Shown one piece after another: positions 34,843 to 62,786 of a DNA stretch of 64,000 nucleotides. Numbering within the stretch: position 1 is the first letter of the stretch; each line of letters opens with the position of its first letter. This DNA comes from Prevotella sp. (GTDB lineage: Bacteria; Bacteroidota; Bacteroidia; Bacteroidales; Bacteroidaceae): positions 124,001 through 188,000 of the forward strand of contig JAFVGZ010000027.1 of the NCBI GenBank assembly GCA_017478025.1, read 5' to 3'. Position numbers and translations under genes: made by a program. The notes below the pieces were generated by a model, which saw only the letters and a program-made list of their open reading frames with translations, was not told where the DNA came from and ran no database searches.

Positions 34843-37116
34843 ATGAAACTCCACTATGATGTTCTGGTTATTGGCGGCGGTCACGCAGGCTGTGAGGCAG
34901 CTCGCGCAGCGGCCCTGATGGGTGCCCGCACATGCCTCGTGACTATCGATATGAACAAGATTGCACAGATGTCGTGCAACCCCGCAGTGGGTGGCATCGC
35001 CAAGGGACAGATAGTCCGCGAGGTGGATGCCCTCGGCGGAGGCATGGGAATAGTGACCGACACCACCGCCATACAGTTCCGTATGCTCAACAAGAGCAAG
35101 GGCCCCGCCATGTGGAGCCCCCGTGCGCAATGCGACAGAGGCCGCTTCATCTGGCAATGGCGCACCATGCTCGACGCTACACCGGGCCTCGATATATGGC
35201 AAGACCAGGCGGAGGAGATAATAAGTGAAGAGTTAAGAGTGGGAAGTGAAGAGTTAAGAGTGAAGAGTGAAGAATCAGGAGCTGAGAGGGAAGAGGGAAG
35301 AGTTAAGAGTGAAGAATCCCTCACGGACAACCCTTCATACAAAGGTAACTCAAATTCTTCACTCTTAACTCTTCACTCTTCACTTTCCTCTCTTCACTCT
35401 TCACTCCCCCGTCGCCGCGTAATCGGTGTCCGCACCATCTGGGGTTGCGAGCTGTATGCCCCGACGGTCATCATCACTGCGGGCACCTTCCTCAACGGAC
35501 TGATGCACATAGGGCGCAAGATGGTGCCGGGAGGACGCTGCGCCGAACCCGCTGCACTGCACCTCACGGAGAGCATCAACAGTATAGGAATACGCTCTGC
35601 ACGCATGAAGACAGGCACGCCGGTGCGCATCGACAGCCGCTCCGTGCACTTCGAAGACACCGAGGTGCAGCCCGGCGAGAACGTCACAAGCCTCTTCAGC
35701 TTCATGCCAAGCCCCCTCCCAGCCTCCCCTATGGGGGAGGAGACCGGAGCTGCCGGAATATCCGGAAAAACCGGAACTGCCGGAATATCCGGAAAACCCG
35801 GAACCGCCGGAACTGCCGGAACTGCCGGAAAGATCCTCTTACCCTGCTATACCTTCAACACCACACCGGAATGTCACGAGATTCTGCGCAGCGGGCTGGC
35901 TGACTCACCGCTCTACAACGGCCAGATCCAGTCCATCGGGCCTCGCTATTGCCCATCTATCGAGACAAAGCTGCATACTTTCCCTGACCGCGACCACCAC
36001 CCTCTGTTCCTCGAACCCGAGGGATTGAACACTAATGAGATGTACCTCAACGGCTTCTCGTCCTCACTACCAATGGACATACAGCTGCGGGCGCTACGGG
36101 CCATACCTGCCCTGCGCGACGTGAAGATTTACCGTCCGGGCTATGCGATAGAGTATGACTTCTTTGACCCCACGCAGTTACACCACTCGCTGATGTCTAA
36201 ACTCTGCGACGGACTGTTCTTTGCCGGACAGGTGAACGGCACGACGGGCTATGAGGAAGCTGCCGGACAGGGCATCGTGGCCGGCATCAACGCCGCTCTC
36301 TATGCTTCACATCTCGGTGCCGGCTCTGCCCACCAGACCCCGGACACCCACATCCCGTCGCTGACACTGCAGCGAGACGAGGCATATATCGGTGTCCTTA
36401 TCGACGACTTGGTGACGAAGGGCGTGGATGAGCCTTATCGCATGTTCACCTCCAGGGCGGAGTACCGCATCCTCCTAAGGCAGGATAACGCCGACACACG
36501 ACTGACGGAGAAATCGTACAAAACAGGTCTGGCATCCACAGAGCGCTACAAACGCTATAAGAGAAAGCAGGAAAAGATAGATGAAATCGTCAGATTCTGT
36601 AATGATTACAACATCAAACCCCGTCAGGTCAACGATGCGTTGAAATCGGCTGGTAGCACTCCTCTCAGCGTGGGATGCAAACTGCGCGAACTCATCGCAC
36701 GCCCCGACGTAGGGCTCTGGACACTCGCCGAAGCGCTGCCTCCACTGAAGCATCGCCTCCTTGCAGCAGAGGACACAGACCTCGATACCTGCAACGCAAA
36801 AAGCAACGATACACGAAGCGGAGCAGAAAGCGCTGCAATGGTGGCAATGAAGAACAGCAAGGCCGTTGAAGCTGCAGAAATAGAGCTGAAGTACGCAGGC
36901 TATATAGAGCGCGAAAAAGCGACGGCAGAGAAGATGCACCGATTGGAAAATATCCACATTCGCGGCCATTTTGATTACAACAGCATCCAGAGTCTCTCCA
37001 CCGAAGCGCGTCAGAAGCTCACCGCCATCGACCCCGCCACCCTCGCCCAGGCGTCACGTATCCCCGGAGTATCTCCTTCTGATGTCAATGTGCTGCTCGT
37101 ATTGATGGGCAGATAA
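34843..37116 (+). CDS. mnmG: tRNA uridine-5-carboxymethylaminomethyl modification enzyme MnmG with repeat-derived inserts
   Basis: MnmG with MnmE modifies wobble uridine in tRNA. The FAD-binding motif G-G-G-H-A-G-C-E-A opens the protein; N-P-A-V-G-G-I-A-K-G, T-G-T-F-L-N-G and the C-terminal Y-A-G-Y-I-E-R-E are family signatures. At 757 residues it is over 120 longer than usual (about 620-630). The excess lies in inserts: residues about 127-190, encoded by a purine heptamer array and its inverted copy; residues about 290-330, S-P-L-P-A-S-P plus Gly-X-Y triplets; and probably a further Ala/Ser-rich stretch near 645-675. FAD and Cys motifs outside them look intact, so it is probably functional. 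Confidence 0.95.
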   Translation: MKLHYDVLVIGGGHAGCEAARAAALMGARTCLVTIDMNKIAQMSCNPAVGGIAKGQIVREVDALGGGMGIVTDTTAIQFRMLNKSKGPAMWSPRAQCDRGRFIWQWRTMLDATPGLDIWQDQAEEIISEELRVGSEELRVKSEESGAEREEGRVKSEESLTDNPSYKGNSNSSLLTLHSSLSSLHSSLPRRRVIGVRTIWGCELYAPTVIITAGTFLNGLMHIGRKMVPGGRCAEPAALHLTESINSIGIRSARMKTGTPVRIDSRSVHFEDTEVQPGENVTSLFSFMPSPLPASPMGEETGAAGISGKTGTAGISGKPGTAGTAGTAGKILLPCYTFNTTPECHEILRSGLADSPLYNGQIQSIGPRYCPSIETKLHTFPDRDHHPLFLEPEGLNTNEMYLNGFSSSLPMDIQLRALRAIPALRDVKIYRPGYAIEYDFFDPTQLHHSLMSKLCDGLFFAGQVNGTTGYEEAAGQGIVAGINAALYASHLGAGSAHQTPDTHIPSLTLQRDEAYIGVLIDDLVTKGVDEPYRMFTSRAEYRILLRQDNADTRLTEKSYKTGLASTERYKRYKRKQEKIDEIVRFCNDYNIKPRQVNDALKSAGSTPLSVGCKLRELIARPDVGLWTLAEALPPLKHRLLAAEDTDLDTCNAKSNDTRSGAESAAMVAMKNSKAVEAAEIELKYAGYIEREKATAEKMHRLENIHIRGHFDYNSIQSLSTEARQKLTAIDPATLAQASRIPGVSPSDVNVLLVLMGR
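35221..35410. repeat. heptanucleotide array with inverted copy inside mnmG
   Basis: The left arm (35221-35320) consists of about 13 heptamers of the type GAAGAGT, TAAGAGT and GAAGAAT. The right arm (35355-35410) contains their reverse complements (ACTCTTC, ACTCTTA). The arms can form a long hairpin in DNA or mRNA. The array stays in frame and encodes about 64 Glu/Ser/Leu-rich residues. Confidence 0.85.
35710..35832 (+). repeat. C-rich/G-rich module plus ten 9-bp units inside mnmG
   Basis: The module AGCCCCCTCCCAGCCTCCCC, then a short loop and GGGGGAGGAG, is followed by ten units of NCCGGAANN (35743-35832). In frame they encode Gly-X-Y triplets (G-I-S, G-K-T, G-T-A and so on). Confidence 0.95.
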
Positions 37117-37167
37117 ACGCCCATTCACACCGGCTTACAAACATCACCGCCGTGACTTCCTGTAACT

Positions 37168-37255
37168 AAAACCGCGAAACGCTACGAATAAAATAGCGAA
37201 ACGCCATAATCAAAACAACGTAGTGCTACGACCAAAATCGCGAAATATCACGACC
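37168..37255. repeat. four tandem 22-bp units upstream of apt
   Basis: Units of exactly 22 bp begin at 37168, 37190, 37212 and 37234, each starting AAAA and sharing CGNRRNGCTACGANY with variation. The array ends 33 bases before the apt ATG. Confidence 0.85.
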
Positions 37256-37288
37256 GAAGAAAACAAATAAAACCTATAATATACTATT

Positions 37289-37819
37289 ATGAATAATCCG
37301 AAACTTATCAGCAAAGTAAGATGTATCCCCGATTTCCCAAAGCCAGGGATACAGTTCCAGGACATTACCCCACTCTTCAATGATTCTGAGTGCCTTCGCA
37401 TCATGCATGATGAAACCGTAGAGATGTACAAAGACAAAGGCATCACCAAAATCGTAGGCATCGAAAGCCGCGGTTTTCTGCTGTCCTCGTCGGTAGCGCT
37501 CACCCTTAACGCAGGTGTCGCTATATGCAGAAAGAAAGGCAAACTGCCCGGCAAGGTGGTGGAAGAAAACTTCGAAAAGGAGTATGGCAAGGACACCGTA
37601 TGCATGACGGAAGACTCCATCACGAGCGACGACGTTGTGCTCATCCACGACGACCTCCTTGCAACAGGCGGAAGTCTGAGGGCAGCCTACAACCTTGTAG
37701 CGAAATTCCACCCAAAGAAGATTTACATCAACGTGATCATAGAACTCACCCGCGACGGCCTTCACGGACGACAGCAGCTGGAAGACCTTACAGAAGTAAC
37801 CACCCTGCTACGCCTGTAA
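37289..37819 (+). CDS. apt: adenine phosphoribosyltransferase
   Basis: This 176-residue salvage enzyme converts adenine and PRPP to AMP. The PRPP-binding loop V-L-I-H-D-D-L-L-A-T-G-G-S lies near 112-124. The N-terminal F-P-K-P-G-I-Q-F-Q-D-I-T-P-L and the I-E-S-R-G-F base-binding segment are characteristic. Length is normal. It stands alone between a 22-bp array and the parS sites. Confidence 0.95.
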   Translation: MNNPKLISKVRCIPDFPKPGIQFQDITPLFNDSECLRIMHDETVEMYKDKGITKIVGIESRGFLLSSSVALTLNAGVAICRKKGKLPGKVVEENFEKEYGKDTVCMTEDSITSDDVVLIHDDLLATGGSLRAAYNLVAKFHPKKIYINVIIELTRDGLHGRQQLEDLTEVTTLLRL

Positions 37820-37820
37820 C

Positions 37821-37836
37821 TGTTCCACGTGAAACA
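37821..37836. promoter_or_regulatory. parS site (ParB-binding), exact match
   Basis: TGTTCCACGTGAAACA is identical to a chromosomal parS site of the consensus TGTTNCACGTGAAACA, bound by ParB/Spo0J during chromosome segregation near the origin. It starts one base after the apt stop codon. Confidence 0.85.
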
Positions 37837-37891
37837 CTGCACGCTGTTTCACACGGTTAAATCACTCAAATTAAGCACTTTTCAAGAAATA

Positions 37892-37907
37892 AGTTTCACG
37901 TGAAACA
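37892..37907. promoter_or_regulatory. second parS site, overlapping the uvrC start
   Basis: AGTTTCACGTGAAACA differs from the parS consensus only at the first base. The likely GTG start codon of uvrC (37900) lies inside it. Between the two sites a half-site (GTTTCAC, about 37856) is also present. Confidence 0.75.
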
Positions 37908-39834
37908 CAATGACGAGGAACGCATATCCCGTTTGAAGGGCATCGTAGCAGCAATGCCAGAGAAGCCCGGTTCGTATCAGTATTATGACGCGGACGGGGT
38001 CATTATCTACGTGGGGAAGGCCAAGAACCTGAAGCGCCGCGTCAGCTCCTACTTCCTCAAGGAGGTGGATCGCTTTAAGACGAAGGTGCTGGTAAGCAAG
38101 ATTCACAATATCTCCTACACCGTCGTGAACAGCGAAGAGGATGCATTGCTGCTGGAGAATGCGCTTATCAAGAAGTATAACCCACGCTACAACGTACTGC
38201 TGAAAGACGGAAAAACCTACCCTTCCATCTGTATCACAAACGAACAGTTTCCACGTATCTTTAAGACACGCACCATAAACAGGAAGTATGGCACGTATTT
38301 CGGTCCCTATTCCCACCTCGGAAGCATGTACGCCATCCTGGAGCTGATAAAGAAGCTCTATCATCCCCGCACGTGCAGGCTGCCACTAACCACTGAGGGG
38401 ATAGCCGCAGGAAAGTACAAAACGTGCCTGGATTACCATATCCACAACTGCGGCGGGGCGTGCATTGGGCGGCAATCACTGGAGGAATACCGCGAGATGA
38501 TAGACCGTGCACGCGAGATATTGAAAGGAAACACGCGCGAGGTGTCAAACCATCTCTTTGCCGAGATGCAAAAAGCCGCCGAAGAACTGCGCTTTGAGGA
38601 TGCCGAAGAGCTGAAGCAGAAATACCTGCTGGTGGAGCAATTCTGCGCCAAGAGCGAGGTGGTGAGCCATACTATCACGGATATTGACGTCTTTACAATA
38701 GACGATGATGACAACAAGCGCAACGCGTTCGTGAACTATATGCACGTCACAAACGGCACGATAAACCAGTCGTTCACCTATGAATACAAGCGAAAACTGG
38801 ACGAGAGCGACGAGGAACTGCTCCTGCAGGCCATCCCCGAAATACGCAGCCGTTTCCACTCTACGGCAAAAGAGATTGTGGTGCCGTTTGAGATAGACTG
38901 GCAATTGCCCGATGCTACCTTCTTCGTGCCGCAGAGAGGCGATAAGCACCACCTGCTGGAGCTATCGCTGATGAACTGCCGGCAGTACCGCATAGACCGC
39001 CTGAAACAGTCAGAAAAGCTCAATCCAGAGCAGCGTTTCACGCGTCTGATGAAGGAATTGCAGGAGAAATTGCAGCTGGAAAAGATGCCCTACACCATCG
39101 AACTCTTTGACAATTCCAACATCTCGGGTACCAATGCCGTTGCGGGTTGCGTGGTTTATAAGGGTATGCGGCCATCAAAGAAGGACTATCGCAAATACAC
39201 CATCAAGACCGTTGACGGCCCAGACGATTACGCCTCCATGCAGGAGGTGGTGATGCGGCGCTATGCACACCTCTCCGAGAAGGTCATCGTAGAGCCGTCA
39301 CAGGGTGCTCCAGAGGCCGCTCCGGACCTCATAATATGTGATGGCGGCATCGGTCAGATGCACTGTGTGGCAGAGGTAGTGTGGGGGCAGCTGGACATAG
39401 ACATCCCCATAGCAGGCCTGGCAAAGAATGATAGGCACCGAACACGCGAACTGTTGTCGCTCCACAGGCCCGCTGAGTGGTCTGAAAAGACCATAGAAGA
39501 GGCGCCTTACGACACCGTTCAGCTGAAGCCTGAGGATGAGCTTTTCAAGGTTCTGACGCAGATGCAGGACGAGGTGCACCGCTATGCCATCACGTTCCAC
39601 CGTGACAAGCGTTCACGCAGCGCCCTGCACAGCGAACTGGACGACATCAAGGGCATAGGACCGAAGGCGAAAGAAGCCATTCTGAAGCACTTCAAAAGCA
39701 TCAAAAAGTTGGCAGAAAAGGCAAACAATGACGAAGGAAAAGCGGAGATAATTTCCATTTTGGGTAACTCAAAAGGGCAGATTATCATCGATTATTTTCA
39801 GAAAAAACAGGCCGAAACACCCACTGAATCATAA
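37900..39834 (+). CDS. uvrC: excinuclease ABC subunit C
   Basis: This 644-residue endonuclease makes both incisions in UvrABC nucleotide-excision repair. An N-terminal GIY-YIG domain (P-G-S-Y-Q-Y-Y-D and I-I-Y-V-G-K-A-K-N-L-K-R-R-V), a Cys cluster (C-L-D-Y-H-I-H-N-C-G-G-A-C-I-G), the UVR helix (F-E-D-A-E-E-L-K-Q-K), the RNase H-like C-terminal nuclease (E-L-F-D-N-S-N-I-S-G-T, I-C-D-G-G-I-G-Q) and the final helix-hairpin-helix (I-K-G-I-G-P-K-A-K) are all present. The only in-frame start compatible with the family is the GTG inside the second parS site. Confidence 0.95.
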   Translation: MKHNDEERISRLKGIVAAMPEKPGSYQYYDADGVIIYVGKAKNLKRRVSSYFLKEVDRFKTKVLVSKIHNISYTVVNSEEDALLLENALIKKYNPRYNVLLKDGKTYPSICITNEQFPRIFKTRTINRKYGTYFGPYSHLGSMYAILELIKKLYHPRTCRLPLTTEGIAAGKYKTCLDYHIHNCGGACIGRQSLEEYREMIDRAREILKGNTREVSNHLFAEMQKAAEELRFEDAEELKQKYLLVEQFCAKSEVVSHTITDIDVFTIDDDDNKRNAFVNYMHVTNGTINQSFTYEYKRKLDESDEELLLQAIPEIRSRFHSTAKEIVVPFEIDWQLPDATFFVPQRGDKHHLLELSLMNCRQYRIDRLKQSEKLNPEQRFTRLMKELQEKLQLEKMPYTIELFDNSNISGTNAVAGCVVYKGMRPSKKDYRKYTIKTVDGPDDYASMQEVVMRRYAHLSEKVIVEPSQGAPEAAPDLIICDGGIGQMHCVAEVVWGQLDIDIPIAGLAKNDRHRTRELLSLHRPAEWSEKTIEEAPYDTVQLKPEDELFKVLTQMQDEVHRYAITFHRDKRSRSALHSELDDIKGIGPKAKEAILKHFKSIKKLAEKANNDEGKAEIISILGNSKGQIIIDYFQKKQAETPTES

Positions 39835-39856
39835 CAAAATAACATAAAGAAAACAC

Positions 39857-40660
39857 ATGGAAGAACTAACAAACATCATCGCCAAGGCGAGCGAGAACGA
39901 CACCGAGGACGTAAAGCGTTTCCTCTTTGGCAGCATCGAATACACAAGCCTGAAGTGTACTGACAGCGAAACGAGCATCATGCAGTTCGTGGAGCAGGTA
40001 AACCGTTGGGACAACGAGTGTCCAGACCTCCCCCACCCCGCCACAATCTGCGTCTATCCGTGCTTCGCGGAGATAGTAAAAGACAGCCTCGACGTAGAGG
40101 GTGTAGGCATAGCATGCGTGAGCGGTTCGTTCCCCTCATCACAGACATTCCTCGAAGTGAAGATAGCCGAGACTGCCCTTGCCATCAAGGACGGCGCAAC
40201 GGAGATAGATATGGTGCTGCCGGTAGGCAAATTCCTTAGCGGCGACGAGGAGGGAGTGAGCGATGAGATACGCGAAATGAAGGCCGTTTGCGGCGATGAA
40301 ATAGCGTTGAAAGTGATACTCGAAACGGGTTGTCTGGGCAGCGCAGAGAACATCCGCAAGGCCTCGTGGCTGGCTATGAACAGCGGTGCCGACTACATCA
40401 AAACCAGCACGGGCAAGGAGAAGATCGGTGCCACGCCAGAGGCGGCATATATCATGTGCCAATGCATCAAAGAGTACTATGAAAAGGAGGGCCGCATGGT
40501 AGGTTTCAAGCCCGCAGGTGGCATCAATACCAGCATGGATGCCATCATCTATTACACCATAGTAAAAGAGGTGTTAGGCGAGAAATGGCTAACCAACAGA
40601 CTGTTCAGATTAGGCACATCGAGATTGGCGGATATATTGATAAAAGAGATTGAGAATTAA
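39857..40660 (+). CDS. deoC: deoxyribose-phosphate aldolase
   Basis: This 267-residue class I aldolase splits 2-deoxyribose-5-phosphate into glyceraldehyde-3-phosphate and acetaldehyde in deoxynucleoside breakdown. Its Schiff-base Lys is in Y-I-K-T-S-T-G, the proton-relay Lys in V-G-F-K-P-A-G-G, and the strand T-E-I-D-M-V-L-P-V-G precedes them. Length is slightly over the usual 220-260. It follows uvrC by 22 bases. Confidence 0.95.
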   Translation: MEELTNIIAKASENDTEDVKRFLFGSIEYTSLKCTDSETSIMQFVEQVNRWDNECPDLPHPATICVYPCFAEIVKDSLDVEGVGIACVSGSFPSSQTFLEVKIAETALAIKDGATEIDMVLPVGKFLSGDEEGVSDEIREMKAVCGDEIALKVILETGCLGSAENIRKASWLAMNSGADYIKTSTGKEKIGATPEAAYIMCQCIKEYYEKEGRMVGFKPAGGINTSMDAIIYYTIVKEVLGEKWLTNRLFRLGTSRLADILIKEIEN

Positions 40661-40743
40661 AAATTAAGAATTCAAAATTCAGAATTATGAACTAAAAAAT
40701 TCTGCATTCTGCATTATGAATTATGAATTAAAAACTGTGCTTT
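40661..40743. repeat. AT-rich 7-9 bp tandem spacer
   Basis: Imperfect copies of GAATTAAAAATTA, GAATTCAAAATTC and ATTCTGCATT with internal inverted repeats fill the gap after deoC. It separates the convergent deoC and prenyl synthase genes and may double as a terminator. Confidence 0.55.
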
Positions 40744-40755
40744 CTGCATAGTAAA

Positions 40756-40843
40756 GTAAAAGACCTACTATTAGCGTCTAATAGCAGGTCTTTTACTGCC
40801 TAATAGTAGGTCTTTTACCGAGTAAAAGACCTGCTATTACAAC
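40756..40843. repeat. four tandem 22-bp units in alternating orientation
   Basis: Units at 40756 and 40822 read GTAAAAGACCTRCTATTA; those at 40778 and 40800 are inverted, CTAATAGYAGGTCTTTTA. The 22-bp register is kept despite the inversions. The last unit contains the stop codon of the prenyl synthase gene (minus strand). Confidence 0.9.
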
Positions 40844-41817: not shown

Positions 41818-41888
41818 ATCTATGCGCCGCCAATCTCCAAGCATGCAATAAAATAGCACAGCGCTTGACCATTTGGCATTTCAACATG

Positions 41889-41896
41889 CAAAATTA
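41889..41896 (-). promoter_or_regulatory. -7 promoter element of the prenyl synthase gene
   Basis: TAatTTTG on the minus strand, about 72 bases before the chosen start. No matching -33 TTTG at the normal distance. Confidence 0.55.
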
Positions 41897-41950
41897 ATAA
41901 AAAAATTTTGATTTTCGGCACAAGACATGATTTTATTGAAAAATTATTAT

Positions 41951-41958
41951 TAATTTTG
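41951..41958 (+). promoter_or_regulatory. -7 promoter element of polA
   Basis: TAatTTTG, 68 bases before the polA ATG, divergent from the prenyl synthase promoter. A CCCCCTACCCTCTCGAGGGG stretch lies in the leader. Confidence 0.6.
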
Positions 41959-42025
41959 CCGAGAAAGTAACACCTGCCCCCTACCCTCTCGAGGGGTGCA
42001 GACAACGTATCACGCACAAAGAATC

Positions 42026-44919: not shown

Positions 44920-44938
44920 TACCATGGTTGAAAATGAA

Positions 44939-49867: not shown

Positions 49868-49954
49868 CAATATAACGCATAAACGGAATGCGATGCGACA
49901 CGTACAAATATCCGACACGACACTTACACAAATGCAATACGAAACATATCAATA
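49868..49954. repeat. about four degenerate 22-bp units in the metH leader
   Basis: Repeated elements of the form AATGCRATRYGACACRT recur about every 22-23 bases (AATGCAATATAACGCAT, AATGCGATGCGACACGT, ATATCCGACACGACACTT, AATGCAATACGAAACAT) up to the start codon. It is more diverged than the other arrays. Confidence 0.55.
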
Positions 49955-52900
49955 TGCGATATAGCCGACAGGACATAGAGAAACTACTGGATGAGCGGGT
50001 GCTTATCCTTGACGGTGCTACGGGTACCTACCTTCAGCAGTTTCAGCTGAAGGAGGAGGACTTCCGCGGCAGCCTGTTCAGCAGCCATCCCGTGCCGCTG
50101 AAAGGCTGCAACGATGTGCTGTGCCTGACGCAGCCTGAGCTGGTGAGGCAGATGCACCGGGCCTACATAGAAGCCGGAGCAGACATCATAGAGACCAATT
50201 CCTTTAACTGCAACCGCTTCTCACTGGGCGACTATGGCCTGGAGGACCGGGTGTATGAGATAAGCAAGGCTGCGGCGAGGGTTGCTAAAGAGGCAGCGAC
50301 AATTGCTAAAGAGGCGACGACGATTGCTAAAGATGCGGCAGAGGGAACCCCCACTCTATCTCCGCAGGAGGAACGCGGTGTGAGGGGCGCGGCTCTGGTG
50401 GCCGGCTCTATGGGCCCCACTAACAAGACTCTCTCCATCAGCGGCAACGTGAACGACCCCGGGGCGCGCGAGATATCATTCCAGGAACTCTATGACACCT
50501 ATCACGAGCAGGCGCGGGGCCTCATGGACGGCGGCGCCGATATGCTGCTCATAGAGACCGTCTTTGACACGCTGAATGCGAAATGTGCGATGAAGGCCAT
50601 CATAGACCTCTGTGCAGAGCGCGGAGAGGACATCCCCGTGATGGTCAGCGCTACGCTGAGCGATGCCTCAGGCCGCACGCTGAGCGGGCAGACGCTTGAC
50701 GCTTTCGTGGCATCCATGAGCCACGGTCCGCTGCTCTCCATAGGCCTGAACTGCGGCTTTGGCGCCAAGCAACTGCTGCCATATATCAGCCGCCTGGACG
50801 AGATAGCGCCCTGTCGCGTCAGCGTGCACCCCAATGCGGGACTGCCGAACGTCATGGGGACCTATGACGAAACGCCTGAGACCTTTGCCCAGGCTGCCCT
50901 TGCCACGCTCAGCAGCGGGAGCAGGATAAACATCTACGGCGGCTGCTGCGGCACTACGCCTGAGCATATCCGCGCCCTGAGAACGGTGGTGGAGGGGCTC
51001 AGCATACCTGCCGAACGGTTGGCGTGCCCAAAGAAGGCGGAGATAGCCCCAATGAGGCTGGCTGGGCTGGAGCTGCTGACGGTCGGGGGCGGTCGTTGCG
51101 ATGACATCGCAACACAAAGAACGAAAAACGCTGCCAATGAGGGGGCGGCTGACAAGGGCGGCGCGGCGCATGAAAAGAGTGGGGCATTTATCAATGTGGG
51201 TGAGCGTACGAACGTGGCGGGATCGGCGAAGTTTAAGAAGCTGATACAGGCGCGGGACTATGAGGCGGCGCTGAGCGTGGCGCGACAGCAGGTGGAGCGC
51301 GGCGCACAGGTGATAGACATCTGCATGGACGACGGCCTGATAGACGGCGTGGAGGCTATGACAACATTCCTGCGCCTCATTGCCGCAGAGCCCGATATAG
51401 CCCGCGTGCCAGTGATGATAGACTCGTCAAGGTGGGATGTCATCAAGGCCGGACTGGAGAATGTGCAGGGCAAGCCCATCGTCAACTCTATCTCGTTGAA
51501 GGAAGGCGAGGAGCCATTCCTGCGCAAGGCGCGCCACATAGCGTCTATGGGAGCCGCCACGGTGGTGATGCTCTTTGACGAAGAGGGTCAGGCCGACACC
51601 TACGAACGCAAGGTGACGGTGGCTCGCAGGGCGTATAAGCTGCTGAAGTACATAGGTTTCCCCACGGAAGACATCATCATCGACCCAAACGTGCTTGCCG
51701 TCGCCACTGGTATGCCGGAGCACGACGACTATGCGAAAGCGTTCATCAGGGCCTGCGCCACCATACACCAGGAGATGCCCGAGGTGCACATGAGCGGCGG
51801 CATCAGCAACCTGTCGTTCTCCTTCCGTGGCAACAACACCATCCGCCAGGCCATGCACAGCGTATTCCTGCACCATGCGATGCAGGCAGGACTGGATATG
51901 AGCATCGTCAATCCGGCGATGACGACAAGGTATGAGGAGATACCGGAGGAGATGCTAAGAGTGGTGGAGGAGGTGATAAAGCCAAGCCCCCTCCCAGCCT
52001 CCCCCCTAGGGGAGGAGACCGGAATGCCCGGAGTATCCGGAATATCCGGAGAAACCGCGACTACCCCCGCAGAGAGGCTGATAGAATATGCCGAAAAGGT
52101 GAAGGCTGCTGACGAGGCTCGCAAGGCAGCGGCGGCAGGGACTACGGCAACGCCAAAGAAAGCGGAGGAGACACCGCGCACGGTGAAGGAACGCATCGCC
52201 GCGGCTATGCTGAAGGGACTGACAGAGAATATAGAAGCTGACACAGAGGAGGCCTATAAGGAGGCCGGCACAGCCCTCGGAGTGATAGACAACTACCTGA
52301 TGCCCGCAATGGAACAGGTGGGGCAACTGTTCGGCGAAGGCAAGATGTTCCTGCCGCAGGTGGTGAAATCAGCCCGCGTGATGAAGAAAGCCGTGGCGGT
52401 GCTGGAGCCGTATATGGGAAGCCCCCTCCCAGCCTCCCCCAAGGGGGAGGGGACCGGAGTCACCGGATTATCCGGAAAGACCGGAATGCCCGGAATATCC
52501 GGATTATCCGGAAAAACCGGAGAAACCGGAACCGCCGGAACCGCCAGCACCTCTGGGGCTACTGTCCTGATGGCTACTGTCAAGGGCGATGTGCATGATA
52601 TCGGCAAGAATATCGTGGCGGTGGTGACGCAGTGCAATGGCTTCCACGTGGAGGATCTCGGCGTGATGGTGGATACACAGACTATTGTGGATACCGCGCA
52701 GAGGCATAACGTGGATGTGATAGGGCTGTCGGGACTCATCACTCCGTCGCTGGACGAGATGATAAAGGTGTGTGAGGAGCTGCAGCGCAGGGGTATGGCA
52801 ACGCCGGTCATCGTGGGCGGAGCAACTACGTCAGCGCTCCATACGGCGCTGAAGATGGCTCCGGCATATCCCAACGGCGTGGTGATACACTCACACTCCG

Positions 52901-53793
52901 CTGCCGACAATCCCGCTATCATACGGCGCCTCATAGCCCCTGACCGCGAGGAGTATATAGCTGAGCAGAAGAACCAGCAGCGCATCGTGAGGGAGAACTA
53001 CCAGCATGAGCAGGCAAAGAAGAAACCCCAGCTGAGCATCATGGAGGCGCGGCAGCGCAGACACCAGAAGAGGGTAGGGGAGGTGGCTATGCCAAAGGGC
53101 GATACCACGTTTGACCTGCAGGTGAAGGTGGCGGACATCAGGGAGCGCATCAACTGGAACTTCTTCTATCAGGCCTGGGGACTGAAAGGCGAGAACCGTC
53201 AGGGCGATGAGGCAAAGAAGCTGATGGCCGATGCCGAGGAGATGCTGAGGGTGATAGACGAGCGCATAACGCTGCTGGCAAAGGCACGCATACTGCCTGC
53301 CAACAGCAATGAGTATGACGACATAGTCATCAACTGCGACGGTGAGAAATATGCCATCAACATGCCGAGAAGCACAACGGAGGCAGACGAGACACTGTGT
53401 CTTGCCGACTATATCATGAGGGACGGAGTGGATTTCATCTGTCCATTCGTGGTAAGCGCGGGCGTGGGACTGAAAGCCCTGCAGGATGAGTATCGCAAGA
53501 ACAACGACGAATATAAGGCCATGATGGCCAAGCTGCTTTGTGACCGCCTGGCCGAAGCACTTGCCGAGCACCTCAGCGACCAGATGGAGTGGGGCGAGCG
53601 GCGCATCAGGTTTGCCTTCGGATATGGTGCCTGTCCCGACCACAAACCGAAGGAGCAGGTGTTCAGCATGCTCGGGGTGGGGGAGAAGGACGGACTGTCA
53701 CTCACATCAAGCTACATGATAGACCCCGGAGAGAGCATCTGCGGACTGATATTCGCAAATACGCCGGGGAGATATTTTAATGTTAATGCATAA
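49954..53793 (+). CDS. metH: cobalamin-dependent methionine synthase with repeat-derived inserts
   Basis: MetH transfers a methyl group from methyltetrahydrofolate to homocysteine via B12. The start M-R-Y-S-R-Q-D-I gives 1279 residues. Domains in order are homocysteine-binding (D-G-A-T-G-T near 16, zinc site G-G-C-C-G near 330), pterin-binding ([11 protein letters not shown]), B12 cap, B12-binding ([10 protein letters not shown], with the cobalt-ligand His) and the AdoMet activation domain (Y-M-I-D-P-G-E-S...F-A-N-T-P-G-R-Y-F). Inserts: 21-bp repeats plus [10 protein letters not shown] near residues 110-150; Ala/Gly-rich 390-415; Gly-X-Y elements at about 678-703 and 823-863, both between domains. 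metF follows. Confidence 0.95.
50281..50343 (+). repeat. three in-frame 21-bp units in metH
   Basis: Units at 50281, 50302 and 50323 read RTTGCTAAAGAKGCGRCG with small changes and encode [14 protein letters not shown] and I-A-K-D-A-A-E. They are followed by a C-rich/G-rich stretch (about 50347-50389) encoding [14 protein letters not shown]. Confidence 0.85.
51985..52062 (+). repeat. module plus about five 9-bp units in metH (first Gly-X-Y insert)
   Basis: The module AGCCCCCTCCCAGCCTCCCC with CCTA loop and GGGGAGGAG is followed by units at 52018-52062 encoding G-M-P, G-V-S, G-I-S and G-E-T. It sits between the pterin-binding domain and the B12 cap. Confidence 0.92.
52420..52542 (+). repeat. 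module plus ten 9-bp units in metH (second Gly-X-Y insert)
   Basis: The same module (52420-52452, loop and GGGGGAGG) is followed by ten units (52453-52542) encoding [15 protein letters not shown] and so on. It sits between the B12 cap and the B12-binding domain. Confidence 0.95.
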
Positions 53794-53854
53794 TGGATGA
53801 TGTACAATTTACAATGTACAATGTACAATTTGATGAAGAGGGATGAGAGATGAA

Positions 53855-53875
53855 CCTTGCGGGGAAACCGCAAGG
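53855..53875. repeat. GNRA-like stem-loop between metH and metF
   Basis: CCTTGCGG and CCGCAAGG form a perfect 8-bp stem with a GGAAA loop, 39 bases before the metF ATG. A TACAATGTACAATT tandem spacer precedes it (53800-53832). It may be an mRNA processing or stability element. Confidence 0.55.
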
Positions 53876-53913
53876 CACCCGAGGAGGGCATAAATCAGTA
53901 ACACAGAGAATAT

Positions 53914-54885: not shown

Positions 54886-54954
54886 GGGCCATGACCGAGG
54901 CGCAAAAGCAGAAGTCCTGACAAAGACTGTAACCTTATCAACAAAACAAATAAT

Positions 54955-56289: not shown

Positions 56290-56310
56290 TGCATAATGCA
56301 TAATTTATAA
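56275..56310. repeat. AT-rich 9-bp spacer CATAATNCATAATG
   Basis: About four imperfect copies of ATTCATAAT / ATGCATAAT overlap the end of uraA and fill most of the gap to upp; the final codons of uraA come from this repeat. Confidence 0.6.
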
Positions 56311-56331
56311 ACCATAAATCATTATATATCC

Positions 56332-56994
56332 ATGAAGGTAGTAAACCTCGGAGAGAAAGACTCCGTTATTAATCAGTTTGTAGCCGAGCTACGCGATGTG
56401 AATATACAGAAGGACCGTATGCGTTTCCGTAACAACGTCAGGCGCATAGGTGCGTTGATGGCATACGAGATCAGCAAGACGCTGAGGTATGAGGAGGTGG
56501 CGGTGGAGACTCCGCTGGCTACGACCAACGTGAGAGTGCCATACGACAATGTGGTGATAGGCACGGTATTCAGAGCCGGTCTGCCTTTCCATGCGGGCTT
56601 CCTTGATATCTTTGACAAAGCAGGCAATGCCTTCCTCTCGGCCTATCGTTACTACACAGACCGCGAGTGTAACAACATCGACGTGCACATAGAGTATATC
56701 GCCACACCAGACCTGACGCATAAGACCTTCATCCTCGTTGACCCCATGCTGGCAACGGGTGAGAGCCTGGTATTGGCACACAACGCCTTCATCACGAAGG
56801 GCGTGCCGAGAAGGGTGGTCATGGCATCGGTAATAGCCACAGAAGAGGGCATAGCAAACCTGAATGAGAGGTTTCCTGCCAATGACATCGTGCTCTACAC
56901 TGCAGCCATCGACCCCATACTGAACGAGCGCAAGTACATCGTGCCGGGCCTGGGCGATGCCGGCGACCTGATGTATGGCGACAAGATGTCATAG
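56332..56994 (+). CDS. upp: uracil phosphoribosyltransferase
   Basis: This 220-residue salvage enzyme makes UMP from uracil and PRPP. The PRPP loop is V-D-P-M-L-A-T-G-E-S. Y-I-V-P-G-L-G-D-A-G-D at the C-terminus is the uracil-binding flexible loop, and the N-terminal L-R-D-V-N-I-Q-K-D-R-M-R-F-R is in place. It forms a transport-and-salvage pair with uraA, 42 bases upstream. Confidence 0.93.
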   Translation: MKVVNLGEKDSVINQFVAELRDVNIQKDRMRFRNNVRRIGALMAYEISKTLRYEEVAVETPLATTNVRVPYDNVVIGTVFRAGLPFHAGFLDIFDKAGNAFLSAYRYYTDRECNNIDVHIEYIATPDLTHKTFILVDPMLATGESLVLAHNAFITKGVPRRVVMASVIATEEGIANLNERFPANDIVLYTAAIDPILNERKYIVPGLGDAGDLMYGDKMS

Positions 56995-57002
56995 AAATCT
57001 GA

Positions 57003-57034
57003 TTTGGCTGTTTGCAAAAAAAGTAGTAACTTTG
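57003..57034 (+). promoter_or_regulatory. ychF promoter, TTTG-N20-TAacTTTG
   Basis: TTTG (57003-57006) and TAACTTTG (57027-57034) stand 20 bases apart, 40 bases before the ychF ATG, directly after the upp stop. Confidence 0.75.
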
Positions 57035-57074
57035 CATCTCGTTTAAGAAATTATAATAACAGAAAAGATACAAA

Positions 57075-58175
57075 ATGGCATTAAAATGTGGTATAGTAGG
57101 ACTGCCTAACGTGGGCAAGTCAACATTGTTCAACTGTCTGTCGAGCGCTAAGGCACAGGCAGCAAACTTCCCCTTCTGCACTATAGAACCTAACGTGGGC
57201 GTAATCACGGTGCCCGATGAGAGGCTTACAAAGCTTGCCGAGCTGGTACACCCGGGACGCATCGTGCCCGCTACGTGTGAGATAGTGGATATCGCCGGCC
57301 TGGTGAAGGGTGCATCAAAGGGTGAGGGCCTGGGAAACAAGTTCTTAGGCAATATCCGCGAGACCGATGCCATCATCCACGTGCTGCGCTGCTTTGAGGA
57401 TGAGAACATCACCCACGTTGACGGTACTATCAACCCCATCCGCGATAAGGAGATAATAGACACGGAGCTGCAACTGAAAGACCTTGAAACGATAGAAAGC
57501 CGCTATGCCAAGACGCAGAAGGTGGCTTCTACGGGCAACAAGGACGCAAAGGTGGAGCTGGCAGTGCTGACGGCCTACAAGGAATGCCTGGAGCAGGGCA
57601 AGAATGCCCGCACGGTAGAGTTTGAGTCGAAGGAGGAGCAGCAGGCCGCCAAGAACCTCTTCCTGCTGACCTCGAAGCCTGTGCTGTACGTCTGCAACGT
57701 CAGCGAGGCCGATGCGAAGGACGGTAACGAATGGACAAAAAAAATCGACGCCATCGCAAAAGATGAGGGCGCCGAGTCAATGGTTGTGGCAGCAAAAACG
57801 GAAGAAGACATCGCAGGCTTTGACAGCTATGAGGACAAGCAGCTGTTCCTGGAGGAGCTGGGACTGGAGGAGAGCGGCGTGAACCGCCTCATCAAGAAGG
57901 CCTACGCCCTGCTGAACCTGCAGACGTTCATCACCGCCGGCGAGATGGAGGTGAAGGCGTGGACCTTCAAGAAAGGCTGGAAGGCTCCGCAGTGTGCCGG
58001 CGTGATACACACCGACTTTGAAAAGGGCTTCATCCGCGCTGAGGTGATAAAGTATGACGACTACATGCAGTACAAGTCTGAGGCAGCCATCAAGGAAGCC
58101 GGCAAGCTCGGCATTGAGGGCAAGGACTACATAGTGCAGGACGGAGACATCATGCACTTCAGATTTAATGTTTAA
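57075..58175 (+). CDS. ychF: redox-regulated ATPase YchF (OLA1/Obg-like)
   Basis: This 366-residue P-loop NTPase of the Obg-like family prefers ATP. Walker A is G-L-P-N-V-G-K-S-T-L-F-N, G3 is D-I-A-G-L-V, and the non-canonical G4 is N-V-S-E-A-D. It ends in the TGS domain (A-W-T-F-K-K-G-W-K-A-P-Q-C-A-G-V-I-H). It binds ribosomes and is implicated in translation and stress responses. Own promoter; length exactly typical. Confidence 0.95.
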   Translation: MALKCGIVGLPNVGKSTLFNCLSSAKAQAANFPFCTIEPNVGVITVPDERLTKLAELVHPGRIVPATCEIVDIAGLVKGASKGEGLGNKFLGNIRETDAIIHVLRCFEDENITHVDGTINPIRDKEIIDTELQLKDLETIESRYAKTQKVASTGNKDAKVELAVLTAYKECLEQGKNARTVEFESKEEQQAAKNLFLLTSKPVLYVCNVSEADAKDGNEWTKKIDAIAKDEGAESMVVAAKTEEDIAGFDSYEDKQLFLEELGLEESGVNRLIKKAYALLNLQTFITAGEMEVKAWTFKKGWKAPQCAGVIHTDFEKGFIRAEVIKYDDYMQYKSEAAIKEAGKLGIEGKDYIVQDGDIMHFRFNV

Positions 58176-58186
58176 TGTAATACATT

Positions 58187-59062
58187 ATGAATTCTGAATT
58201 ACTATACATCCTCTGGAATCCCGATTTGATTATCTGTCACATCGGGCCGTTGGCCATACGCTGGTATAGCACCTGCTGGCTCTTAGGGCTACTGGGCTGC
58301 TATCTGCTGGTGAAGTACCTCTATCGTAAGCAGGGACTGTCCGACGAGAAGTTTGAACCGCTGTTCCTCTATTGCTTCGTGGGCATCCTCATCGGCGCAC
58401 GACTGGGTCACTGTCTGTTCTACGAACCCGCGTACTTCCTCTCCTCATGGCAACACATGGTGGAGATGGTGCTGCCTATCAGACAGGGCATCGACGGCTC
58501 GTGGCACTTCACCGGCTACGAGGGCCTGGCATCACACGGCGGTACCATAGGTATCATACTCGCGCTGCTGCTCTATAGCCGCAACCTGAAGGTGGGAATG
58601 TGGACTGTGCTGGACATCGTGTCTATCTCTGTCCCCATCTGCGCCAGCTTCATACGCCTGGGCAACCTGATGAACTCAGAGATTATCGGCAAGCCTACCG
58701 ACGTGCCCTGGGCCTTCATCTTTGAGCGCGTAGATAACCTGCCGCGCCACCCGGGACAGCTGTACGAGGCTATCGCCTACGCCTGCTTCTTCGTAGTGCT
58801 GTGGACGATATACCGCAAGACCAATGTCACCAGCCCCAACGGTAAGCAGCAGAGGAACCCGCTGATAGGCACCGGATTCTATTTCGGACTGGACATCCTG
58901 CTCATCTTCCTCTTCCGTTTCTTCATAGAATACACCAAAGAGGTGCAGGAAGCATTTGAGGCCAGCATGCCTATCGACATGGGACAGCTGCTCTCAATAC
59001 CCTTCATCCTGCTCGGTGCATACTACACCTGGCGCGGAATGAAAAAAGCAAAGCAAGCATAA
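58187..59062 (+). CDS. lgt: prolipoprotein diacylglyceryl transferase
   Basis: This 291-residue membrane enzyme transfers diacylglycerol to the lipobox Cys of prelipoproteins. The signature [13 protein letters not shown] and the N-terminal A-I-R-W-Y region are present. H-P-G-Q-L-Y-E-A and G-A-R-L-G-H carry further conserved residues. Seven helices are predicted. Several lipoproteins with lipoboxes are encoded in this window. It follows ychF by 11 bases. Confidence 0.93.
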
Positions 59063-59069
59063 TAACATA

Positions 59070-59114
59070 ACCGGAATACCCGGAATATCCGGAAAACCCG
59101 GACCCACCGGAAAA
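59070..59114 (+). repeat. five 9-bp units between lgt and mutS
   Basis: Five units of NCCGGAANN (59070-59114) without the 5' module fill the spacer, ending 12 bases before the mutS ATG. One unit is CCCGGACCC. Confidence 0.92.
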
Positions 59115-59126
59115 AACTATACCACA

Positions 59127-61922
59127 ATGGCAACAAAACCCGGCGAGCTGACGCCGATGATGAAACAGTTCTACAACCTCAAAGCCAAACACCCTGAGGC
59201 GTTGCTGCTGTTCCGCTGCGGTGACTTCTATGAGACCTATGCCAAGGATGCCATCGAGGCATCACGCATCCTCGGTATCACCCTCACCAAGCGCAACAAC
59301 GGTGCCTCGGTGGGCGATGCCATGGCGGGATTTCCACATCACGCCCTTGACACCTACCTGCCAAAGCTCATCCGTGCCGGGCGACGCGTGGCCATCTGTG
59401 ACCAGCTGGAGGACCCTAAGCTGGCCAAGAAGCTCGTAAAACGCGGCATCACAGAGCTCGTAACCCCCGGTGTGGCGATGAGCGACACTGTGCTCAACCA
59501 CAAGGAGAACAATTTCCTCTGCGCCCTGCACATGGGCAAGGGCACCATCGGAGTGGCTTTTCTCGATATCTCGACGGGTGAATACCTATGCGATCAGGGC
59601 AACGCCGAGTACGTACAGAAGATGCTCAGCAGCTTCGGACCAAAGGAGACGCTGATAGAACGCGGCCATCGCGGACAGGTGGATCAGCTCTTCGGCAATG
59701 GGGTGGGGGAGACATTCGAACTCGATGACTGGGTCTTCACCATGCAGACAGCCCTGCAGAAGCTCACGAAACACTTCCACGTGAAGAACATGAAGGGCTT
59801 CGGCGTAGCCAACCTGAGCGACGGCCTCATAGCCGCCAGCGCCATATTGCAGTATCTGGAATATACCCAGCACACGGAGATAGGCCACATCACCACGCTC
59901 AAACGCATTGATGCCAACCGCTACGTGAGGCTCGACAACTTCACGCTCAACAATCTGGAAATCCTGCAACCGCTGCACGAAGGGGGCACATCGCTGGTGG
60001 ATATCATCGACAATACCACGTCGCCGATGGGTGCCCGCATGTTGCGCCGATGGCTCATCTTCCCCTTGCGCGAGAAGAATGCCATCTGTGAGCGCCATGA
60101 TGCAGTGGACTATTTCTTCCGCGAACCCGAGAGCCGCGAGGTGATAGAGGAGGAGCTGCGCCGCATCGGCGACATGGAGCGCATTGTGTCACGCGTCGCC
60201 ACAGGCAAGGTGATGCCCCGCGAGGTGATGCAGCTGAAGCATGCTCTCACTGCCATCAAGCCCATCAGGGTGGTGTGCATGCAGGCCACGGGTGCTCCGT
60301 CAGCCGCAACAGGCAGCAACAGCGCCGAGACACCGGTGCTGAGAAGGGTAGGGGAGAGGCTTGACACACTCGACGAACTGCGCACTCACATAGAGCAATG
60401 GCTGGAGCCGGAGCTGCCGACACAGGTCAATAAGGGCGGGGTAATACGCACGGGAGTATGCCCGGAACTGGACGAGCTGCGACACATAGCCTACTCTGGC
60501 AAGGACTACCTGCTGCAATTGCAGAAGCGCGAAGTGGATAGGACAGGCATCATGAGCCTCAAGGTGGGCTTCAACAATGTGTTCGGCTACTATCTGGAGG
60601 TGCGCAATACGTTCAAGGACAAGGTGCCATCTGACTGGATACGCAAGCAGACACTGGCACAGGCGGAGCGATATATCACCGAGGAGCTGAAGGAATATGA
60701 GGAGAAAATCCTCGGGGCCGAGGAGCGCATCCTGGCTCTTGAGACCAAGCTCTACACGGAATTGGTGCAGTACGTGCAGCAGTTCATCAAACCGCTTCAG
60801 CAGGATGCCGTTGCCGTAGCCGAACTGGACTGCCTTATCTCCTTTGCCATCACAGCGGCACAGCACCGCTACGTGCGCCCCGTCATAGACAATAGCAGCG
60901 TCATAGACATCCGTCAGGGCCGCCATCCCGTCATAGAGACGAATATGCCGGTGGGAGAAGAGTATGTGCCAAACGATGTAACACTCCAAAGCCCCAGCCC
61001 AACAGCGACCGCCAGCCCCCTCCCAGCCTCCCCCCTGAGGGAGGAGACCGGAACTGCCGGAGAAACCGGAATATCCGTAAAACCCGGAAACACCGGAGAA
61101 TCCGGAACTGCCGGAACCTCCGGAGCCCCCGCCGATCCACCTCAGATAATCATCATCACCGGTCCTAACATGGCCGGTAAGTCGGCTCTGCTGCGCCAGA
61201 CGGCGCTCATAGTGCTGCTCGCACAGATAGGCTCCTATGTCCCCGCTGAGAGCGCACGCATCGGTATAGTGGATAAAATCTTCACCCGTGTGGGTGCCAG
61301 CGACAGCATCTCGACAGGCGAATCGACCTTCATGGTGGAGATGACAGAGGCCGCCAACATCCTTAACAACGTCACAGACCGCTCTCTGGTGCTCTTTGAC
61401 GAGCTGGGACGAGGCACATCTACCTATGACGGCATCTCCATAGCATGGAGCATCATAGAGCATCTCCACGAGCAACAGGGCTGCCGTGCACGCACGCTCT
61501 TCGCTACGCACTACCACGAGCTCAACGAGATGGAGAAGCACTATAGCCGCATCAAGAACTATAATGTGTCGGTGAAGGACATCAATGGCCGCATCATCTT
61601 CCTGCGAAAACTCGTCGCCGGAGGCAGCGAACACAGCTTCGGTATCCACGTGGCACAGCTGGCAGGCATGCCACCGTCCATTATTCGCCGCGCCAACGAA
61701 GTGCTGCAGTCGCTCGAAAAGGAAGGCAATGAGGTGGGCGCAGTAGGCAAGAAAGTGATGTCAGCAGCCTCAGCAGCACCCCAGCTGTCTTTCTTCCAGC
61801 TCGATGACCCAGTGCTCATGCAGATACGCGACGAGATATTGGGCATAGACATCAACAGCCTCACACCGCTCGAAGCACTCAACAAACTCAGTGAGATAAA
61901 GAAAATAGTCAACAACAAGTAA
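59127..61922 (+). CDS. mutS: DNA mismatch repair protein MutS with a Gly-X-Y insert
   Basis: This 931-residue mismatch-recognition ATPase has the N-terminal mismatch-binding motif C-G-D-F-Y-E-T-Y (F-x-E type), connector, core and clamp domains. The ATPase has Walker A G-P-N-M-A-G-K-S (about 679-686), Walker [13 protein letters not shown] and the following T-H-Y-H-E-L. An insert of about 40 residues ([13 protein letters not shown] then Gly-X-Y triplets, about 630-667) lies 12 residues before Walker A, in the loop joining the core to the ATPase domain. Usual length is about 860-880. The rest is conserved, so activity is likely. Confidence 0.95.
61013..61127 (+). repeat. module plus nine 9-bp units in mutS
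   Basis: The module AGCCCCCTCCCAGCCTCCCC with a CCTG loop and AGGGAGGAG is followed by nine units (61047-61127) encoding [18 protein letters not shown] and so on. In one unit the Gly codon has become Val (CCGTAA). Confidence 0.95.
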
Positions 61923-61940
61923 TTAAATCCACTCCACATT

Positions 61941-62645
61941 ATGAAAAGATTATCATTCCTCATCGTCGTGATGCTTATTGCACTCACTGCTTCGGCTCAG
62001 TACAAGAAGGTAAACTTTGCTGTGAACCGTTCCTCTGGTCTTGTTTCCAACATCCGCGTCAAGGGCGATCCCTACCGCATGAACTGGGTTCAGGAGTACC
62101 GTGACACCCTCGATCCCATGAGCCGTGCCTACCTCTGGGGTCAGGCGGTGAACATGCAGAAGCATGATCCGCAGAACCCAGTGAAGATTTCAAACACTGC
62201 CCGCCGCTGGACCACCAGCGAAGACATGGGGGAAGTCTTTACGTTCAAGAACGAATCGAAGGTGCCTTACGATATGTCTAACATGCGCATTGCAGTGCCA
62301 TTCAACTGCAATCCCGATGTGGGCTCAAGCAAACACCATCGCTGCGACATCACCGTGTCGCTCAACGACGGCAACAAGACCTACGTGAAGGCAGTGCGCC
62401 AGAGCGGGAAAGCCCCACACATAGCACTCATCGTAGAGAAGGGCACCATAGGGCGCTATGAGATGCTGGAGGTAGAAAAGCCTAACAGCGAAAACAACGG
62501 ACGCTACGTCCTCACCTTCTACCCCGAGAGCTACATCCTAAAACCAGGCAAGTCATACACCCTGCAGTGGACTATCTTCGTATATAACGACGAGGAGGAG
62601 TTCAACAAAGAGTTGAAGAACCACGGCTGGAAAGCAAAGAAGTAA
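61941..62645 (+). CDS. secreted protein of unknown function
   Basis: This 234-residue protein has a signal peptide (L-I-V-V-M-L-I-A-L-T-A-S-A-Q). The mature part appears beta-rich, for example V-F-T-F-K-N-E-S-K-V-P-Y-D and C-D-I-T-V-S-L-N-D-G-N-K-T-Y-V, which suggests an immunoglobulin- or jelly-roll-like fold. I cannot name a family. There is no sorting signal or lipobox. It starts 18 bases after mutS and is followed by the longest intergenic 9-bp array. Confidence 0.7.
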   Translation: MKRLSFLIVVMLIALTASAQYKKVNFAVNRSSGLVSNIRVKGDPYRMNWVQEYRDTLDPMSRAYLWGQAVNMQKHDPQNPVKISNTARRWTTSEDMGEVFTFKNESKVPYDMSNMRIAVPFNCNPDVGSSKHHRCDITVSLNDGNKTYVKAVRQSGKAPHIALIVEKGTIGRYEMLEVEKPNSENNGRYVLTFYPESYILKPGKSYTLQWTIFVYNDEEEFNKELKNHGWKAKK

Positions 62646-62786
62646 CCCCCTTCCAAAGGGGAAGGAGACCGGAAATACTGGAAATACTGGAAATACCGGA
62701 GACCCCGGAACATCCGGAATATCCAGAATATCCGGAATATCCGGAATATCCGGAGAAACCGGAAACTCCGGAAACTCCGTAAAAAC
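62645..62786 (+). repeat. module plus thirteen 9-bp units between genes
   Basis: A variant module (ACCCCCTTCCAAAGGGGAAGGAG, 62644-62667) is followed by thirteen units (62668-62784), mostly TCCGGAATA and ACTGGAAAT. It lies between the secreted protein's stop codon and leuS and is therefore non-coding. Confidence 0.95.

Follow-up and report, generated by a model that had tools for sequence, protein, structure and literature searches.

How has the same short repeat come to be read as protein within several conserved enzymes of one bacterium, and on what terms is it kept there? The question is raised by a stretch of 64,000 nt (hereafter the window) of the Prevotella sp. contig JAFVGZ010000027.1 (contig C41 of the analysis), in which a hairpin module of about 34 bp (AGCCCC...GGAGGAGA), followed by 4–13 units of the 9-bp repeat CCGGANNNN, is inserted in frame once in mnmG, twice in metH and once in mutS, with a further copy lying ahead of a gene (3' of the hairpin and array at 62645-62785) that we take, as did an earlier note on this DNA, to be leuS. 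Repeat DNA is becoming protein here, in that linker peptides missing in relatives have been added to MetH, MnmG and other enzymes, and the element itself is probably an intragenic palindrome, comparable to repetitive extragenic palindromic (REP) sequences and Rickettsia palindromic elements (RPEs), that has been joined to a 9-bp minisatellite and is kept only where the protein tolerates it. Below, L-labels denote fetched DNA stretches, G-labels genomes of the genus and C-labels contigs.

Hairpin-Array Copies in the Window

The copies and their host genes are as follows.

34777..37116, plus strand: mnmG (gidA), host gene (Pfam GIDA, E=1.5e-136; alignment with 14 relatives), with the hairpin-array insert and two other extra segments
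35710..35743, plus strand: mnmG hairpin module, 7-bp stem and 4-nt loop, read SPLPASPMGEE
35744..35833, plus strand: mnmG array, 10 units of CCGGANNNN, read Gly-X-Y
49888..53793, plus strand: metH, host gene of two hairpin-array inserts (Pfam domains; alignment with 8 relatives)
51985..52018, plus strand: metH site 1 hairpin module, between the pterin-binding domain and the B12 cap domain
52019..52054, plus strand: metH site 1 array, 4 units of CCGGANNNN
52420..52453, plus strand: metH site 2 hairpin module, between the B12 cap domain and the B12-binding domain
52454..52543, plus strand: metH site 2 array, 10 units of CCGGANNNN
59071..59115, plus strand: array without hairpin in the mutS leader, 5 units, 11 bp ahead of the ATG
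59127..61922, plus strand: mutS, host gene (Pfam MutS I-V)
61014..61047, plus strand: mutS hairpin module, imperfect stem
61048..61128, plus strand: mutS array, 9 units (8 exact), read Gly-X-Y, about a dozen residues ahead of the ATPase P-loop
62645..62668, plus strand: degenerate hairpin ahead of leuS
62669..62785, plus strand: 13-unit array (9 exact) ahead of leuS

Direct reading and measurement of the DNA confirm the hairpin and array that the earlier note had described in mnmG, at both metH sites, in mutS and ahead of leuS, with coordinates that were right to a base or so, save that its end of metH site 1 (52062) took in one extra degenerate unit. Ahead of mutS, where the same element had been reported, the five-unit array is indeed present, only it stands alone, with no hairpin. 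In all four in-gene copies of the window, the hairpin reads SPLPASP and the array reads Gly-X-Y, the latter as had been proposed for every coding copy; outside the window, however, coding copies also read Pro-Glu/Asp-X and Ser-Gly-X and, in a sister species, X-Pro-Asp. Likewise, the hairpin-array copies of mnmG, metH, mutS and the leuS leader all lie on the plus strand, yet this does not hold for all copies, as both orientations are found on the remainder of the contig (some copies there running antisense to their host gene) and the minus strand of the window bears, near 28292-28325, a palindrome of similar overall shape that has no array.

The hairpin and array patterns are far above chance: over the whole genome, the three-unit pattern with at most one mismatch gave 199 matches (overlapping positions, both strands) against 1 for the reversed control, while for the four-unit pattern the figures were 139 and 0 and for the hairpin pattern 8 and 0. 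Different sites, moreover, have four-letter unit ends in common, the 133 exact units using 38 distinct words as opposed to the 62 expected with columns shuffled (minimum 53 in 2000 shuffles), a low count to which repeats within arrays contribute. Rfam returned no match at the gathering threshold for window positions 34000-64000, the mnmG element had no match in E. coli genomes, plasmids or phages, and IMG/VR held no exact match to the element pattern. A collagen function for the Gly-X-Y segments was rejected, as they are short and have few prolines, and the only Pfam collagen-repeat match (the tRNA synthetase fragment L110:2-622, 25.4 bits) falls below the 27.2 cut-off; MnmG, MetH and MutS themselves had no such match at E<=1e-4.

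Absence of the Segments from Relatives

MutS was matched in 149 of the 150 genus genomes searched and, among the matches listed, most alignments break near residues 621 and 670, which are the bounds of the insert. The segments are lineage-specific, and the finding that the earlier note had named as refuting, homologues throughout the order with such segments at the same positions, did not appear: they are absent from the 29 best-scoring MutS relatives, the 14 MnmG relatives and the 8 MetH relatives (part of those found) that were aligned, all of the same genus and none from other families of the order, as well as from the aligned solved homologues of the three proteins. In MutS the insert lies between residues 603 and 608 of 7ai6 (presumably E. 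coli MutS) and in MnmG between residues 246 and 247 of 3cp8, that is, where the solved homologues have a gap of four or no residues; those of MetH fall, by Pfam and alignment, at the boundary of the pterin and cap domains and at that of the cap and B12 domains. Judging by length variation in the alignments, the MutS and MnmG positions are probably loops, which supports the proposal that coding copies sit at variable loops or domain junctions.

As some relatives carry other repeat material at the very same loops, the site matters as much as the element. At the insert loop, G111 MutS reads SKSPLKGDLEG..., at site 2 G008 MetH reads KSPIPTSPEKGRGEA..., and the hairpin-array loop of G001 MnmG holds a segment related to a dispersed 7-bp repeat (TTCACTC / GTGAAGA), which is dense in that genome and in the window is also inserted in frame in mnmG (35224-35406), while G169 and G141 MnmG also have other material at the insert loop. 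When five such inserts were compared with the fetched DNA of their own genomes, the G008 MetH insert had four similar places elsewhere and the G001 MnmG insert at least a dozen or so, the other three having none in the DNA fetched, save that the G111 insert has two arms that match one another.

Beyond these proteins, the hairpin pattern was found in 9 and the four-unit array pattern in 12 of 59 other genus members, although single array matches may be chance, as two matchless genus genomes have a control match. The composite hairpin-array pattern matched in 10 of 398 genus genomes, and the junction of the window's type, with a C-rich arm ahead, was seen only in this genome and in UBA2718 (G212, as contig numbers and coordinates indicate); when the contexts of other matches were viewed, G018 and G031 had no hairpin, G215 nothing like one and G126 (the L287 genome) a different palindrome near the array, the remaining four having been judged from the matched sequence alone. 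Extra segments of at least 10 aa in reciprocal-best protein pairs number 18 in this genome versus 7 in G008, 13 versus 1 in G138 and 13 versus 2 in UBA2718 (one of the two being a run of unknown residues), an excess biased upward, since a single insert can be scored as more than one gap and the presence of arrays was among the grounds for choosing the DNA.

The Sister Species UBA2718

Prevotellaceae bacterium UBA2718, a separate assembly with 85% DNA identity over 8 kb of the window, came from a pattern scan of named genomes that returned at least 114 loci, most in GC-rich genomes and, across a wide gap, apparently unrelated; those with a C-tract ahead, plus ten chosen from Bacteroidales or similar, were viewed, and two (UBA2718 and L287) were followed. 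UBA2718 shares the mnmG insert (8 units versus 10 here), the metH site 2 insert (9 versus 10) and further sites, again with differing unit numbers, the array at L105:2554 having 17 units here and 11 there. The inserts are thus real and fast-changing, and the arrays are minisatellites in the sense of tandem units whose number varies between lineages. There was no match to mutS in UBA2718, so the mutS insert stands without a sister-species comparison.

Copies Elsewhere in the Same Genome

Twenty further stretches of the genome (about 389 kb), chosen for arrays or hairpins or for their location on the window's contig, were read. The host genes of the hairpin-array copies there encode a histidine phosphatase, an amylase, a class Ic tRNA synthetase (of which a fragment was read), a glycosyltransferase with two antisense copies, and a pullulanase that additionally bears a hairpin-free array; further copies lie outside genes. 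Arrays lacking an adjacent hairpin are found in UvrA, in a second glycosyltransferase, in an OstA-like protein and at the end of an exonuclease, and are read as Pro-Glu/Asp-X. At all 14 hairpin-array places that a pattern search found in the fetched DNA of this genome, the array lies 3' of the hairpin, and the mutS and degenerate leuS copies, which the pattern missed, show the same order by eye; 10 of these 16 places are inside genes. Many hairpins of the genome have no array. The UvrA (L114:8434-11886, contig C15; 1151 aa) holds two hairpin segments and a Pro-Glu-X array, along with three copies of a GDVGVLAxDKK segment followed by SLFT-type 7-bp repeat peptide.

The origin of one copy can be traced. 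The copy at 2227 of the glycosyltransferase gene L105:1884-3182 has no counterpart in UBA2718 or G008 and stands opposite a gap in the G138 alignment (the G001 comparison gave no resolution). It resembles the copy at 2554, 327 bp away, over 140 columns, 119 of them identical, with one 9-bp unit missing, and the likeness takes in 15 bases to the left of the hairpin, of which 12 are identical. Most likely, then, the 2227 copy arose in this lineage, in frame, by the copying of a segment slightly larger than the element. The 2554 array, in turn, is read as Ser-Gly-X here and as X-Pro-Asp in UBA2718, so its peptide is not conserved between the two species.

Some side observations concern the arrangement of the repeats. 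Arrays, hairpins and 7-bp repeats are clustered on C41 from about 156 kb and at C42:20-62 kb, and by a crude count C41 has few 7-bp repeats ahead of 159.7 kb. At L111:3605-3806 (contig C42), four tandem hairpin-plus-tail units stand about 67 bp apart, the last of which bears a 9-bp array.

Two further features of the host genes are not of the hairpin-array kind.

35224..35406, no strand assigned: second repeat insert of mnmG, inverted arrays of a 7-bp repeat (AGTGAAG / TCTTCAC; Tandem Repeats Finder), peptide SEELRVKSEE...LLTLHSSLSSLHSSL
50350..50391, plus strand: further extra peptide of metH, 14 residues, resembling a repeat-encoded peptide, with gaps in UBA2718, G138 and G001

The peptide of the former is absent from the aligned MnmG relatives, G141 and some others having other extra residues nearby. 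A third extra segment at about residues 661-690 of MnmG (AEDTDLDTCNAKSNDTRSGAESA) looks non-repetitive and is likewise absent from the aligned relatives.

Origin and Maintenance of the Insertions

The explanation that we favour would run as follows. In the lineage of this species and UBA2718, a dispersed palindrome of the general REP/RPE type (hairpin plus short tail) is joined to (CCGGANNNN)n, which always stands 3' of it; new copies would be made locally, by template switching or duplication, and perhaps also through an enzyme acting in trans; and the arrays would change by slippage in 9-bp steps, which would keep the reading frame. Selection would then remove those copies that break a protein, leaving survivors in loops and inter-domain linkers, where they would be translated as spacers under little sequence constraint, and the changing units and frames indeed suggest a mere spacer function. 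The earlier note had spoken of a propagating element tolerated through its period and phase. The copies are dispersed and in frame, but nothing in the data points to a dedicated mechanism of propagation, the one traceable gain looking like a copy from 327 bp away; similarly, the 9-bp steps do keep the frame, but the GGA phase giving Gly-X-Y was rejected as the only cause of tolerance, since other frames are used. Nor could the notion of a single self-contained element be retained, as hairpins and arrays also occur separately.

In keeping with selection on the translated copies, there is no in-frame stop among the 109 units of 13 coding Gly-X-Y sites (nine of this genome and four of UBA2718), as opposed to 12 among the 104 units of 12 leader or intergenic stretches, two of which are halves of one place (Fisher p=1.3e-4; by stretch, 0/13 versus 7/12), and six Pro-Glu/Asp-X sites, four of this genome and two of UBA2718, show 0/60 stops in their own frame and 9/60 in the Gly-X-Y frame. 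Left out of these comparisons were three antisense sites, whose 37 units contain one stop when read as Gly-X-Y, four TPR-protein arrays and the unclassified L107:19130, L393, L402 and L404:3891.

Several observations, however, weigh against this explanation. The stop comparison is itself partly circular, the sorting into coding and leader copies having used open frames and homology. At L105:7572 and L105:2554, UBA2718 has the array and no hairpin; G001 MutS reads SGKTGNNGV at the insert loop, from three degenerate CGGA-like units at 9-bp spacing, again with no hairpin; and 29 of 30 array sites drawn from other genomes (G036, G040, G059, G027, G009, G001 and the L287 genome) have no hairpin within 60 bases, one having it (15 of the 30 lie in long open frames, homology having been checked for G040 MutS only). 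Hairpin and array may therefore join or part after insertion, the array being perhaps the older at some sites. In DNA folding, the bare hairpin stem is no more stable than shuffles (z-scores of -0.78 to +0.38 for four C41-type hairpins alone and -0.97 for the C42 type). Exact three-unit matches are regionally clustered, being confined to 6 of 43 contigs, mostly C41 and C42, and the first of them on C41 stands at 159744, with none earlier. Lastly, in-gene hairpins use one frame of three in 9 of the 10 sense copies examined (a chance of about 0.001 if the frames were equal, although in two of the four window copies one other sense frame is closed), the exception being the second UvrA hairpin, so the insertion phase or the peptide is perhaps not free. 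The array may have grown from the hairpin tail or the hairpin may have been joined to older arrays, with evidence both ways: the G026 and G003 hairpins have the common tail AGTGCCTAACGGGAG, and CGG occurs in 12 of 14 tails as opposed to 9% of background stretches, so this tail could have seeded the array, whereas the hairpin-free arrays of UBA2718 at shared sites and of G001 MutS favour older arrays that a hairpin joined.

Among the alternatives, the one that fares best, although it seems unlikely, is a mobile element that is non-autonomous and depends on a transposase acting in trans (of the REP-associated tyrosine transposase (RAYT)/IS200-like kind or other), carrying its array as would a miniature inverted-repeat transposable element (MITE) with an internal minisatellite. 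It is favoured by the near-identity of hairpins at many unrelated sites and by the presence of Y1 transposases in 8 of the 17 genomes tested, whereas no Y1 transposase (PF01797, IS200-type) was found in this genome or in the draft of UBA2718, other transposase families not having been searched and the absence being weak evidence, as this genome is 84.7% complete. Moreover, no terminal inverted repeats are visible by eye, the 3' end is a variable array, the four REP tag strings (GTAG, CGTC and their complements) are all missing near 12 of the 14 array-bearing hairpins (L105:2206 has CTAC and GACG, L110:183 has CTAC), and the traced 2227 copy brought flanking bases along.

More doubtful still is a dedicated and active linker-making repeat, whose hairpin would copy itself into genes in a preferred frame together with a stepwise-changing array and so supply and retune the inter-domain linkers of essential enzymes, those of DNA repair included, over species divergence. 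An adaptive role, in which variable linkers of the Gly-X-Y or Pro-Glu-X type would tune domain spacing or give reversible variation (as in MutS and UvrA), is improbable to a further degree: the frame preference, the inter-domain positions in MetH, the segments in both MutS and UvrA and the Gly-X-Y array of its own that G040 MutS has at a different place in the protein would fit, but a UBA2718 glycosyltransferase uses another array frame, unit content is not conserved and the host genes are functionally unrelated. Removal of the segments before function, at the RNA or protein level, is very improbable and has no direct support, even though folding is stronger than in shuffles both for the array by itself (z -3.8) and for the complete mnmG element (z -4.4), because coding copies are stop-free in the frame used, which would be needless were they spliced out or bypassed (an argument that leaves protein-level removal unaffected). 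An assembly or binning artefact can practically be dismissed, for although both genomes are drafts and three UBA2718 contigs (C35, C97, C14) terminate within or next to such repeats, two separate assemblies of about 85% DNA identity have common sites in syntenic genes with intact reading frames, and the shared mnmG and metH site 2 inserts contradict it directly.

Comparison with Known Systems

The two sister species amount to a natural experiment, offering sites without a segment, with an array only and with hairpin plus array, and even one array in two frames, which makes both the way in which repeat DNA turns into protein and the linker tolerance of essential enzymes directly testable. They also carry a warning, as proteins predicted from such draft genomes hold repeat-derived segments at the very places where assemblies break.

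The likeness to RPEs that the earlier note had drawn is apt. RPEs are described as in-frame palindromic repeats within open reading frames (ORFs), at solvent-exposed sites, with different element groups standing close together in orthologs (PMC3767692). The present element likewise inserts in frame in conserved genes whose relatives have the site without it, but the likeness is one of description: RPEs are given as 100–150 bp, the part of that account drawn on here mentioning no tandem array (PMC3767692), whereas the present element, from another phylum, combines a 34-bp hairpin with a minisatellite of 9-bp units. Intragenic REPs, with GTAG or CGTC tags, are described as short palindromes in ORFs, many of them in genes of replication and repair (uvrA and uvrB among these), which form dimers and clusters and whose tolerance is attributed to flexible linkers or loops, CGTC repeats being reported from Bacteroidetes too (PMC3733652). 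Short palindromes within ORFs, repair genes included, are what is seen here as well; unlike REPs, however, the present hairpins mostly have none of the tags nearby, no RAYT-type gene (PF01797) was found in this incomplete genome, and the 9-bp tandem array has no counterpart in what that account, as far as it is used here, describes.

Porphyromonas gingivalis belongs to the same order as this bacterium. Its BrickBuilt MITE is described as dispersed and always intergenic, with a minisatellite of 23-bp units between a leader and a tail with small inverted-repeat ends (PMC4596501). The element described here is similarly dispersed and contains a minisatellite, but most of its hairpin-array places are inside genes, and its copies start at AGCCCC and end, as judged by eye and with no dedicated search for terminal inverted repeats, in the variable array. 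PARCEL coding repeats, in turn, have dyad symmetry, encode protein and are thought mobile within and between genomes, but they are presented as 25-residue amphipathic domains in ORFs without assigned function (PMC2996958), in contrast to spacers in housekeeping enzymes. A literature search covering titles and the beginnings of abstracts, with results partly covered, gave no account of the present combination in Prevotella or Bacteroidetes and, as intragenic REPs and RPEs are themselves published, what appears new is the combination: to the known phenomenon of intragenic palindromic repeats, this Prevotellaceae lineage adds a fast-changing 9-bp minisatellite.

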